NCBI RefSeq assembly: GCF_014696065.1
Contig: NZ_JACJPL010000031.1
Coordinates: forward strand, 806,001-870,000
Source: Leptolyngbya sp. FACHB-261
GTDB taxonomy: Bacteria > Cyanobacteriota > Cyanobacteriia > FACHB-261
Length of the DNA stretch: 64,000 nt
Reading direction: 5' to 3'
In this document: piece after piece, positions 44,544 through 48,022 of the stretch
Layout of the letters: each line of letters starts with the position of its first letter
How positions within the stretch are numbered: the stretch's first letter is position 1
Position numbers and translations under genes: made by a program
Notes under the pieces: generated by a model
What the model was told of the DNA's origin: nothing
The model's input: only the letters and a program-made list of their open reading frames with translations
Databases searched by the model: none

Positions 44544-46286
44544 CTAGCGACTGAGGCTGACGGGTCGAGCCAGTGAATTGTGAGCTGCAATGGCTTCCAA
44601 AATGCGAGCCACACTGAAAGGAACACCACCATAGGCTCGCAGTTTGTCCACTTCACGGAAGGTGTGCGCCTGGATTAGATGGGCCAATTGCCCCTGGAAA
44701 TTGCTCTCTACTGCAATCGCCCAACGTACGCCGCGCAGGTAGTCTTGTACTGCATCAGTGGGAAAGGGATTCAGAGTCCGCAGCACCATCGCTGAAACCG
44801 AATGGCCCTGCGCTTGAGCGATTTTCACTGCCTCCTGCACCGGCCCCCAAGCAGTGCCCCAAGTAATTAAACCGACCTCGGCTCGCGAGGGGTCACCTAA
44901 GATCTCAGGTGCAGGTAGACTAGCGCGAATCTGTTCTAGTTTGCGGAAGCGCTTCTCGGTTTGGGCTTCGTGGTTTTCTGGGGTGTAGCAGGGGGCATCA
45001 GAAGGGGTGTGCTCCAAGCCACTGGCAACGTAGTGAGCATTAGGCTGGCCTGGAACTGCCATAGGCGATACCCCTGAACTCGTCAGGTCAAATCGCAGAT
45101 AGGGCACTTCAGAAGGAGTGTAGGTCAGACGCTCCGCCCGTTTCACTTGGCTGAGGTCGGGCCGCTGTACGCTCTCTGTGCGATTGCTGAGCGTAATGTC
45201 TGAGAGCAGTACAACTGGCACCTGATACGTCTCGGCGATTTGGAAGGCCCGAATCGTTTGCCAGAAGCAGTCCTCAACATCAGTGGGGGCAATCACCACG
45301 CGGGCTGTATCGCCGTGACTACCGTGCAGAGCAATATTCAAATCTGATTGCTCCATCTTGGTTGGCATCCCCGTGCTGGGACCGGCACGCATTGAGTCCA
45401 CAACGACTATGGGAATCTCAGCTCCCCAGGCGTAGCCCAGCGTTTCACCCATTAGTGATAGGCCAGGACCAGAGGTCGCGGTCATCGCTGGAACTCCTGC
45501 GTAGGAGGCACCGACAGCCATCATCACGGCACTGATTTCATCCTCAACTTGCTGACAGACCCCACCGACCTTGGGCAGTTCCCCAGCGAGAAATTCCATG
45601 ATGTCCGTGGCCGGTGTGATCGGATAGCCAAAGTAAGCTCGACAGCCTGCCGCAATAGCACCCATCGCAATCATTTGATTGCCAGAGAGAATTAAGCGGC
45701 TTTGATCCACATTTGGTTCAGTTAAACGCAGAACTTCTGTAGGCAAATCAGCAGTAAATTTTAAACCTGCTTGCAGAGCCGCTTTGTTTTTGCCAATGAT
45801 TTCTTCGCCTTTACGTTTAAATTGCTTCTCGATAGCTTGCTGGAGAAATTGCTCAACTCCTGGAAAAAACTGAGAAAGAACACCAAGCGCAACAACATTT
45901 TTTGCTAGCGGAAAACCAATCTCCTCCCGAGCAATTCGACCAAAGGGAACTCCTACAGCTTGATGTTTAAAATCATTGGGAATGGTAACGGCCTCAGAAT
46001 CATAAACCACCACACTTGCAGAGGCTAAATCTTTGACGTTGTGATCGAACGCATATTGGTTGTAGGCCAACAGCAAATCCAGGCTATCTCCCTGAGTGCT
46101 TAGGCGTTGCGAGCCCACTCGCATCTGGAATAGGGCAGGTCCCCCCTTGATCTCTGCCGGGAACGTGCGATAGGTAAACAGCCAGTAGCCCAACTTTGCT
46201 AAAGCTCGTGCAAAAGTCTCACTCGAGCTAATCACACCCTCGCCAGATTCCCCGGCAATTCGTAGAACAAAGGACGCTTTGGTCAT
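44544..46286 (-). CDS. korA: 2-oxoacid:ferredoxin oxidoreductase alpha subunit (gamma-alpha fusion)
   Basis: 580 residues. The N-terminal 190 or so form the gamma domain (VLRIAGESGEGVISSSETFA, FPAEIKGGPALFQMRVG). The rest is the alpha pyrimidine-binding domain with YPITPATDIMEFLA, EDEISAVMMAVGASYAG, MTATSGPGLSLMGETLG and DSMRAGPSTGMPTKMEQSDL. The ATG at 46286 is preferred over a TTG at 46301. The gene precedes korB by 85 bp on the same strand. In a phototroph it would link carbon metabolism to reduced ferredoxin in the dark or under low oxygen; that use is inferred. Confidence 0.88.
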   Translation of the reverse strand: MTKASFVLRIAGESGEGVISSSETFARALAKLGYWLFTYRTFPAEIKGGPALFQMRVGSQRLSTQGDSLDLLLAYNQYAFDHNVKDLASASVVVYDSEAVTIPNDFKHQAVGVPFGRIAREEIGFPLAKNVVALGVLSQFFPGVEQFLQQAIEKQFKRKGEEIIGKNKAALQAGLKFTADLPTEVLRLTEPNVDQSRLILSGNQMIAMGAIAAGCRAYFGYPITPATDIMEFLAGELPKVGGVCQQVEDEISAVMMAVGASYAGVPAMTATSGPGLSLMGETLGYAWGAEIPIVVVDSMRAGPSTGMPTKMEQSDLNIALHGSHGDTARVVIAPTDVEDCFWQTIRAFQIAETYQVPVVLLSDITLSNRTESVQRPDLSQVKRAERLTYTPSEVPYLRFDLTSSGVSPMAVPGQPNAHYVASGLEHTPSDAPCYTPENHEAQTEKRFRKLEQIRASLPAPEILGDPSRAEVGLITWGTAWGPVQEAVKIAQAQGHSVSAMVLRTLNPFPTDAVQDYLRGVRWAIAVESNFQGQLAHLIQAHTFREVDKLRAYGGVPFSVARILEAIAAHNSLARPVSLSR

Positions 46287-46854
46287 AAGTACATATCTCA
46301 ATTCGAACTATTTCGACAGAGCTTCACAGAGCTTTTTAGAAGGGGGGTTTGTTCATAAAACTCAGCATGTTCTTTAAACTCTGCTATATCTAATATGACC
46401 TATAGGCTCCTGAAGGTCTGATACTTTTTTCATCTTTCTTTGAAAACCCATAAAAATCTTAGTAAAGCCTCGGTGAAGCAAAAAAATAAGTCATAAAACT
46501 AACAACGCTTCAGTAAAAACAGCGCTGGGTTTGCATGTATCTAGATACCTGTAAACTGAGCAAGACCAGAAACTTGATTTCCGCTCGTTCTCAAGTAGGC
46601 TCAGTCCTGGGCTAATTCTGCATTAGAGAGAATTTTGTCTCACAACCGGGCGTCTTGGCTGTAGTCTTGGCTAGAGTCTTGCGCAGGTCTACCTTCGTCC
46701 TGCCGGGATTCCGGCCCGAAACTGCCTCGACTTGGAGCCAGCATGAGTAATTCCTGAGCGTTATGACTAGTTGAGGCAGACCCCGGCTCAGATGAGTTCG
46801 ATGTAGAAATCATGAAGTTTGTCTGATGGGTGTTACCCCTCATCCTTTTCGTGG
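46287..46854. other. Long intergenic region upstream of korA
   Basis: AT-rich near korA (46370-46520), as expected for its promoter, but I could not fix the boxes. Further right, TCTTGGCT is repeated around 46653-46671. A minus-strand frame of up to 78 codons (46640-46876) has an SQD-rich tail encoded by this repeat; I do not call it a gene because it lacks a ribosome-binding site and overlaps the possible short RNA. Confidence 0.4.
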
Positions 46855-46866
46855 CATACTCTGGTA

Positions 46867-46917
46867 ATAGATGCACCCTGATTTGGCGGAGAGCTACTTG
46901 CTGGCTCTCCGTTTTTT
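46867..46917 (+). ncRNA. Possible short RNA or attenuated leader ending at a strong terminator
   Basis: A textbook rho-independent terminator, CGGAGAGC (46887-46894), nine-base loop, GCTCTCCG (46904-46911) and six T, lies on the plus strand with no plus-strand gene before it for more than 3.6 kb. A CATACT box with an upstream TGG (46852-46860) could start a transcript near 46867, giving about 50 bases. It may be a small RNA or a leader attenuator of the downstream deacetylase-family gene. The 5' end is a guess. Confidence 0.35.
46887..46917 (+). terminator. Strong rho-independent terminator without an upstream plus-strand gene
   Basis: Perfect 8-bp GC-rich stem, nine-base loop and an immediate run of six T; a second run of seven T follows at about 46926. 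It lies 170 bp before the preferred start of the deacetylase-family gene. Confidence 0.8.
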
Positions 46918-47083
46918 CATGGTCGTTTTTTTAGAGTCATTTTTTCAGGGCCTAGGGGTGTCAGCTACACTGAACCCGTATACCAGCCCATTCGGCGAGG
47001 TAGAGGGCTTCTATCTAGCCGTTGCCTTGTTTGGGTTGCGCTACCTGCGGTTCAGCTATTCAGAATCTTGCGAGGGGGATGTT

Positions 47084-48022
47084 GTGACCTTTCCCATCAT
47101 TTACTCCGAGGAATTTTTGCAGCACGACACGGGGCGTCTCCATCCTGAGAAGGCTGGACGGCTGACAGCCTCAGTGGAGGCTCTGCGTCAGGCAGCCTTT
47201 GCCGAGCAGTTGAGTTGGCAGACCCCCACAGCCTGGCAAGAGCGTGAAGTCTTACCTTGGGTGTTGCGAGTACATCGCCAGCCCTATGTAGAGGCCGTTA
47301 GACGTCTGGCCGAAGCCGGCGGCGGTCGGATTGATTCAGATACTTTCGTTTCCAGCCAGAGTTACGAGGTTGCCCTGCTAGCGGTGAGTGCCTGGTTGGA
47401 CGGGGTTGACCAAGTATTGCGTTCAGGTGAGCCTGCCTTCGTGTTGGCACGTCCACCAGGACACCATGCTCTGCCTGAAATTGGTATGGGCTTCTGCATT
47501 TTTGCCAATGCTGCTGTGGCAGCTCTGTACGCCCTCAGCCAGCCCGGTATACAACGGGTCGCCATCCTGGATTGGGACGTGCACCACGGCAATGGCACCC
47601 AGGAGATTGTCTGGGATATGCCCCAGATCGCCTACGTCTCAACCCACCAGGCTCCTTTCTATCCGGGTACAGGTCAAGCGGAGGAGCGGGGAGCCCACAA
47701 CAACATCTTGAATCTGCCAATGGCGAGCGGCAGCACTTTGGCAGAGTATCAGCCCGCTTTTGAACAGAAAATTTTGCCGTTTCTGCGCGAGTTCTCCCCT
47801 GACTTGTTAATTGTCAGTGCAGGCTTTGACGCGAACCGAGATGACCCTCTTGCTAGCCTTGCCCTTCAGCCCAGTGACTATGGCCTGTTTACTGAGCTTT
47901 GTCTGGGGCTAACGCGCAAGATCGTCTTTGGTTTAGAAGGCGGCTACGATTTTCGGGCCTTGGCTCAATCCGTGGTGGCAGTGGTAGAAAGCTGCCTGCA
48001 ACCGATCAAGCAACGAGTCTAA
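47084..48022 (+). CDS. Histone deacetylase / acetoin-utilisation family amidohydrolase
   Basis: Zinc amidohydrolase related to eukaryotic HDACs and AcuC; bacterial members remove acyl groups from small amines or proteins. The preferred GTG at 47084 has GAGGGGG six bases upstream and gives 312 residues beginning TFPIIYSEEFLQHDTG. The frame could extend to 46871, but that would read through the terminator. Active-site motifs: ARPPGHHALPEIGMGFC (tandem His), ILDWDVHHGNGTQEI (zinc Asp and His) and VSAGFDANRDDPLA (zinc Asp), with EGGYDF near the end. The 3' end overlaps the convergent cobalamin gene by four bases. Confidence 0.9.
   Translation: MTFPIIYSEEFLQHDTGRLHPEKAGRLTASVEALRQAAFAEQLSWQTPTAWQEREVLPWVLRVHRQPYVEAVRRLAEAGGGRIDSDTFVSSQSYEVALLAVSAWLDGVDQVLRSGEPAFVLARPPGHHALPEIGMGFCIFANAAVAALYALSQPGIQRVAILDWDVHHGNGTQEIVWDMPQIAYVSTHQAPFYPGTGQAEERGAHNNILNLPMASGSTLAEYQPAFEQKILPFLREFSPDLLIVSAGFDANRDDPLASLALQPSDYGLFTELCLGLTRKIVFGLEGGYDFRALAQSVVAVVESCLQPIKQRV

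Follow-up and report, generated by a model that had tools for sequence, protein, structure and literature searches.

NsiR1 is a HetR-dependent small RNA (sRNA) of heterocysts in Nostoc and Anabaena, which represses hetF as an antisense RNA and pairs with the start region of alr3234 (PMC9045159). The DIF1 motif is defined as TCCGGA (PMC6133370). An NsiR1-like sRNA is already known from a non-heterocystous species, namely the 57-nt RNA162 of Limnospira indica PCC 8005, a filamentous and HetR-carrying cyanobacterium (PMC8400943), and Yfr1, a further short sRNA of cyanobacteria, contains a motif that is invariant and unpaired (PMC4734099). The 17-bp HetR site of the hetP promoter is GAGGGGTCTAACCCCTC (PMC4192349), and GGGN5CCC is indispensable for HetR binding, as judged by structure and by EMSA (PMC4649674). 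HetR is kept also by cyanobacteria that do not form heterocysts, where its function is an open question (PMC4192349).

We have analysed a stretch of 64,000 nucleotides (64 kb) in the genome of Leptolyngbya sp. FACHB-261 (6.95 Mb in 36 contigs); the whole stretch is called the window. On its plus strand lies a compact unit, the best reading of which, with a probability of about three in four, is a HetR-activated and trans-acting sRNA belonging to a sister subfamily of NsiR1. Sites of the window type are called class B and those of the NsiR1 type class A. The features of the unit, with the grounds for each, are the following.

46825-46841, plus strand: palindrome GATGGGTGTTACCCCTC, predicted HetR-binding site with core GGGTGTTACCC at 46828-46838 and centre at about -35 (match to the hetP site)
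46852-46860, plus strand: extended -10 element TGGCATACT (sequence; conservation in relatives)
46867-46917, plus strand: predicted sRNA, roughly 50 nt long, the position of its 5' end being a prediction to +/- 3 nt (RF02399 match; class-B model R1)
46868-46882, plus strand: front end TAGATGCACCCTGAT, invariant and unpaired, with which targets presumably pair (alignment A2; predicted fold)
46887-46911, plus strand: terminator hairpin with a perfect 8-bp stem, or 12 pairs at 46885-46913 when G-U pairs are allowed (sequence, folding, stem search, covariation)
46912-46917, plus strand: T6 tract of the intrinsic terminator (sequence, stem search)

The window RNA has its size, its front end UAGAUGCACCCUGAU and a 3' intrinsic terminator in common with NsiR1 (RF02399), and both RNA types share the occurrence of several copies per genome and a link to HetR. 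The NsiR1 promoter has the DIF1 motif, whereas class B has a GGGN5CCC palindrome and a TATA-like -10; the hairpin stem of class B is purine-rich, unlike that of NsiR1; and NsiR1 stands in a tandem array before hetF, whereas class B is mostly found at a gatB/argJ locus. Limnospira RNA162 comes, as the window RNA presumably does, from a HetR carrier without heterocysts, and may belong to either class. Yfr1 differs in that its motif is unrelated, it was reported from every genome of its study and it is not tied to HetR.

Hairpin, predicted promoter and predicted RNA in the window

The stem arms CGGAGAGC (46887-46894) and GCTCTCCG (46904-46911) pair perfectly over 8 bp and are followed by TTTTTT, as a preliminary description of this DNA had noticed. 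When both strands of the window were searched for perfect 8-bp stems with at least five G/C, a loop of 3-13 and T5 after the stem, this was the only site in the 64 kb. Folding of a 54-nt stretch gave -20.6 kcal/mol (z -3.9), and an equally good fold was obtained in one of 200 shuffles. A general scan of 6 kb gave 10 terminator-like sites against 6.2 +/- 2.4 in shuffles, and its sole promoter-like match lay elsewhere and not at the RNA locus. Because this general scan of terminators and promoters gave no support, evidence for function is taken from conservation. The next upstream gene, which encodes an alpha-type 2-oxoacid:ferredoxin oxidoreductase (44544-46301), is on the minus strand, as had been remarked, and therefore the hairpin is entered by no plus-strand gene. 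The CATACT proposed previously as a -10 is present at 46855-46860, with TGG before it and its end 27 bases ahead of the stem.

No Rfam family reached its gathering threshold anywhere in the 64-kb window, and no tRNA or tmRNA was found in the window search. The link to NsiR1 emerged only when 801 bases were searched alone against Rfam at a loose threshold, giving an RF02399 match at 46865-46919 with 27.0 bits (E 0.0046; Rfam cut-off 39 bits). The front end agrees with the NsiR1 consensus, being identical at 46868-46882, and is single-stranded in the predicted fold; the 3' half aligns as a hairpin with a T-run. Among the matches listed from 20 sources searched, RF02399 scores of 25.5-35.5 bits were found. 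The window copy departs from most others in TTTGG after CCTGA and in AA ahead of the front end. The 14-mer used as a marker below occurs once in the window, and a tandem array upstream of hetF as in NsiR1 was not found there. TCCGGA is absent within one mismatch at -42 to -34 of the window RNA, and the palindrome is present there instead.

The palindrome is identical at 14 of 17 bases to the hetP HetR site with the GGGN5CCC core kept, and is the best match to that site on either strand of the window. Across the 66 class-B sites having the core, between 9 and 16 of the 17 bases agree with the hetP site. A GGGN5CCC site near the promoter, by which the HetR regulon is recognized, is thus present at 46828-46838. 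With its centre some 35 bp upstream of the front end, the palindrome occupies the position of a -35 box. The hetP site serves a protein gene; the window palindrome, in contrast, precedes a predicted RNA gene.

Sequence conservation among relatives

BLASTN with 46800-46930 gave matches in 24 of 59 genomes, the window's own genome included, and alignment A2 was made of 28 copies gathered in this way and not by the front-end motif. Mean identity in A2 was 0.55, 0.87, 0.69 and 0.85 for the flank, palindrome, spacer and -10 (46853-46860), and 1.00, 0.88/0.86, 0.51, 0.93 and 0.49 for the front end, two stem arms, loop, T6 and bases after it, respectively. The 15-nt front end (28/28) and the upstream GGG...CCCC are invariant, and the -10-like element and hairpin are conserved. 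Judged from the sequences, this profile resembles that of a transcription unit. In the stem, 93.7% of the cells of A2 are paired and both-sided changes occur in five of nine pairs, which was equalled in none of 500 shuffles. When 61 copies were compared, both-sided changes with pairing kept were seen in seven of the nine pairs, and two of the nine were broken or gapped in 10 and 12 copies.

The preliminary description had named lack of conservation in close relatives as what would refute its RNA of about 50 bases running from CATACT to the hairpin. Promoter, front end, stem and T-run proved to be conserved as one unit, and flanks and loop did not, so that this RNA is supported. The region 46825-46917 is very probably a real small-RNA gene, and its expression is predicted.

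A leaderless mRNA for a tiny protein, with an ATG at 46871 (MHPD...), was also considered. In 61 of 61 copies this ATG, placed three bases inside the front end, is present and followed by codons for MHPD, and the frame is open to the T-run in 53 of them. However, RNA length modulo 3 is spread over 26, 18 and 17 copies, the fifth residue is already variable (D in 33, G in 23 and others in 5 of the 61), the front end does not vary at third codon positions, and what is conserved downstream of it forms a paired stem in which changes are compensated. The small protein was rejected, and we give this reading very little credence.

Two types of promoters at a common front end

The exact 14-mer TAGATGCACCCTGA was found in 35 of the 59 genomes, and its reversed control in none. 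At least 179 distinct 14-mer sites were collected with 60 bases upstream and 62 downstream, sites near a contig or locus end being left out. Class A was assigned when TCCGGA was present within one mismatch at -42 to -34 (exact in 96 of the listed sites), and class B when GGGN5CCC was present at -45 to -36 (starting at -41 in 26 of 35 listed sites). The 179 listed sites in the 59 genomes comprised 131 of class A, 35 of class B, 13 with neither motif and none with both. The background at these offsets, taken from random positions in the loci retrieved, is 0.34% for the palindrome and 4.2% for the one-mismatch DIF1 motif. Among the listed sites, the purine-rich GAGAG-type hairpin was found in 32/35 of class B vs 2/131 of class A, and the TATA-like -10 in 30/35 vs 1/131. 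Because promoter and hairpin types are split so cleanly, the window RNA is regarded as distinct from the canonical NsiR1.

That the window RNA is a canonical NsiR1 copy with nothing distinct is accordingly unlikely, even though front end, 3' hairpin and size are shared. Its score is 27.0 bits against the cut-off of 39, it has no TCCGGA and a different hairpin, and the two types do not overlap in the 179 listed sites. In addition, four class-A copies in the same genome exceed the Rfam cut-off; that genome further contains a fifth NsiR1-like copy of 38.0 bits and one class-B copy. A literature search, with the primary NsiR1 papers outside its scope, found no description of a palindrome-driven NsiR1-like class, and as far as this literature extends class B is new as a class.

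Several other sites were observed. The 38.0-bit copy (L067; G000:C27:875389-875402, minus strand) has the 14-mer and lacks both promoter motifs; a pilT-type gene fragment lies about 840 bases away. Two canonical NsiR1-type RNAs (L065 and L066; G000:C27:99808 and 100035, minus strand) stand in tandem 227 bases apart in this genome, which lacks nifH. A pair of 14-mer sites in two other genomes (L315 in G058 and L320 in G010) share a common upstream sequence with neither promoter motif, and may represent a third promoter type. In some genomes class-B copies stand in tandem arrays. Symploca sp. SIO2C1 (L201; G105:C446) has at least five class-B copies in tandem, about 200 bases apart with the palindrome promoter, resembling the Nostoc NsiR1 array. 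Among the 14-mer matches listed in viral contigs (at least 120 stretches), neither promoter motif was present in any of the 80 kept.

Distribution of class B and HetR

HetR_C (PF18460) matched 32 of the 59 relatives, and RF02399 was above its cut-off in 34, i.e., all 32 with HetR plus G006 and G020. Model R1 for class B was constructed from 28 sequences found in these 59 relatives, and matches among the relatives are therefore partly by construction; the window RNA, itself one of the 28, scores 90.3 bits. Matches above 60 bits were found in 31 of 59 relatives (29/32 with HetR and 2/27 without). An independent test set of 50 named genomes, obtained from 80 loci recruited via the deacetylase and containing three repeats with the relatives, gave such matches in 37/38 genomes with HetR vs 1/12 without. 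The 60-bit line was set after the scores had been seen; the best scores of positives are at least 66.8 bits, and the best listed score elsewhere is 27.9. After removal of the repeats, recognized by identical coordinates (G015=G064, G033=G107 and G036=G103), the two sets together give 64/68 with HetR vs 2/38 without (Fisher p about 2e-21, which overstates the evidence because kinship is ignored).

Among the named positives, Anabaena, Nostoc, Scytonema, Brasilonema and Mastigocoleus are taken by us to be heterocyst formers, and Leptolyngbya, Oscillatoria PCC 10802, Trichocoleus and Phormidesmis presumably form no heterocysts. Four HetR carriers gave no strong class-B match: the named genome G074 and the relatives G009, G017 and G041, whose draft assemblies consist of 400-720 contigs. 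Of the two HetR-less positives, the one among the named genomes is Gloeocapsopsis crepidinum, in which neither profile nor protein search found HetR; its copy (L268) retains the class-B RNA together with a -10-like TATACT and has no palindrome, as is expected if the palindrome serves HetR. The other, the relative G006, counts against a strict rule, because profile and protein searches gave no match to HetR and yet the palindrome is kept (L011); an assembly gap or recent loss may possibly explain the absence. The same genome contains nifH and RNAs of both classes, with the DIF1 motif and the palindrome, respectively.

The window's own genome has a full-length hetR match (C4:71776-72669) with 63% identity to a relative's HetR. 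Its product keeps R66, H73, E75, K77 and R78 of L061, which we take to correspond, by a shift of 4, to R62, H69, E71, K73 and R74 of Anabaena HetR. Taken together, the window RNA gene is probably under HetR, and its HetR dependence is predicted. Two partial HetR matches were also observed in this genome, a C-terminal part at a contig start (L248; G000:C18:17-538) and an N-terminal part (L249; C19:38093-38206), and are perhaps one second hetR split between contigs. The search for nifH gave no match above the cut-off in this genome (best 218.6 vs 394.35 bits), and therefore the organism is very probably not a nitrogen fixer.

Neighboring genes

The downstream gene on the plus strand belongs to the histone-deacetylase family (PF00850) and begins at about 47084, 167 bases past the T-run. 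This position, upstream on the same strand, had suggested a leader attenuator of the deacetylase gene; a riboswitch-like element was considered together with it. The motif with up to one mismatch was, however, found in none of 80 loci of deacetylase relatives within up to 4 kb of flank; the downstream gene differs among relatives of the RNA, which mostly stand beside gatB/argJ; no riboswitch or leader family was found in 46300-47100 at E up to 10; and a competing anti-terminator is absent from the predicted folds. The deacetylase neighbor is not conserved, and the attenuator is dropped as a very improbable reading.

In the 63 class-B loci, gatB lies 70-394 bp upstream on the same strand in 41 and argJ downstream in 23; gatB and/or argJ is present in 49, and neither in 14, the window included. 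The common position behind gatB is what favors the view that the hairpin is a mere transcription terminator, either that of gatB left behind here or one insulating the deacetylase gene from stray transcription. A terminator, however, has no need of an invariant 15-nt front end, a palindrome at a fixed distance and a -10, and all of these are kept in the window's genome, where gatB (C31:742558-743775) is about 109 kb apart from the RNA (C31:852868). Thus the cassette or gatB has changed place, and promoter and terminator have stayed with the RNA. Retention of the whole unit at such a distance argues for an independent gene. Since loci with neither gatB nor argJ keep the unit too and the unit tracks HetR, a terminator alone is quite unlikely.

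Proposed function and targets

For the HetR-activated sRNA, the following course is proposed. HetR, encoded elsewhere in the genome, would bind the palindrome substituting for a -35 box, the extended -10 would direct RNA polymerase to initiate at about 46867, and termination at the hairpin would yield a transcript about 50 nt long. The single-stranded front end, letter-identical to that of NsiR1, presumably base-pairs with target mRNAs around their translation starts, in the way described for the Nostoc NsiR1, and class B would by analogy use it to repress mRNAs. Class B would then be a sister subfamily of NsiR1 having the same front end, a different hairpin and a different HetR-linked promoter.

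Two candidate targets were compared with the seed by duplex energy only, which is a weak test. hetP-like genes (NF037966) matched in eight of the 59 genomes; at the nine loci with a start, no excess pairing was seen and none lay beyond the 5% tail, and no start codon was found for the hetP-like gene of the window's own genome (L242). The starts of argJ showed no excess pairing in 16 loci (median rank 0.335). Neither hetP-like genes nor argJ thus gain support as targets.

Biological significance

As a tentative proposal, to which we give somewhat less than even odds, the ancestral job of HetR, before heterocysts, may include switching on a dedicated sRNA. Two sRNA families with the same 15-nt targeting sequence and different HetR-linked promoters (direct palindrome vs DIF1) would then let one set of mRNAs be repressed by two separately timed RNAs, and the DIF1 branch would have been expanded later into the hetF array by heterocyst formers. 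The data suggest that the NsiR1 front end already served HetR-linked targeting when heterocysts had yet to arise, and the pair of class B and class A is a naturally occurring example of a single seed controlled by two promoters. Because this RNA class is present in most HetR-carrying cyanobacteria, non-heterocystous ones included, it opens a route to studying the function of HetR in the latter, and an RNA gene of the window type with a near-perfect predicted HetR site is a direct and easily assayed candidate for a HetR output in non-heterocystous organisms.
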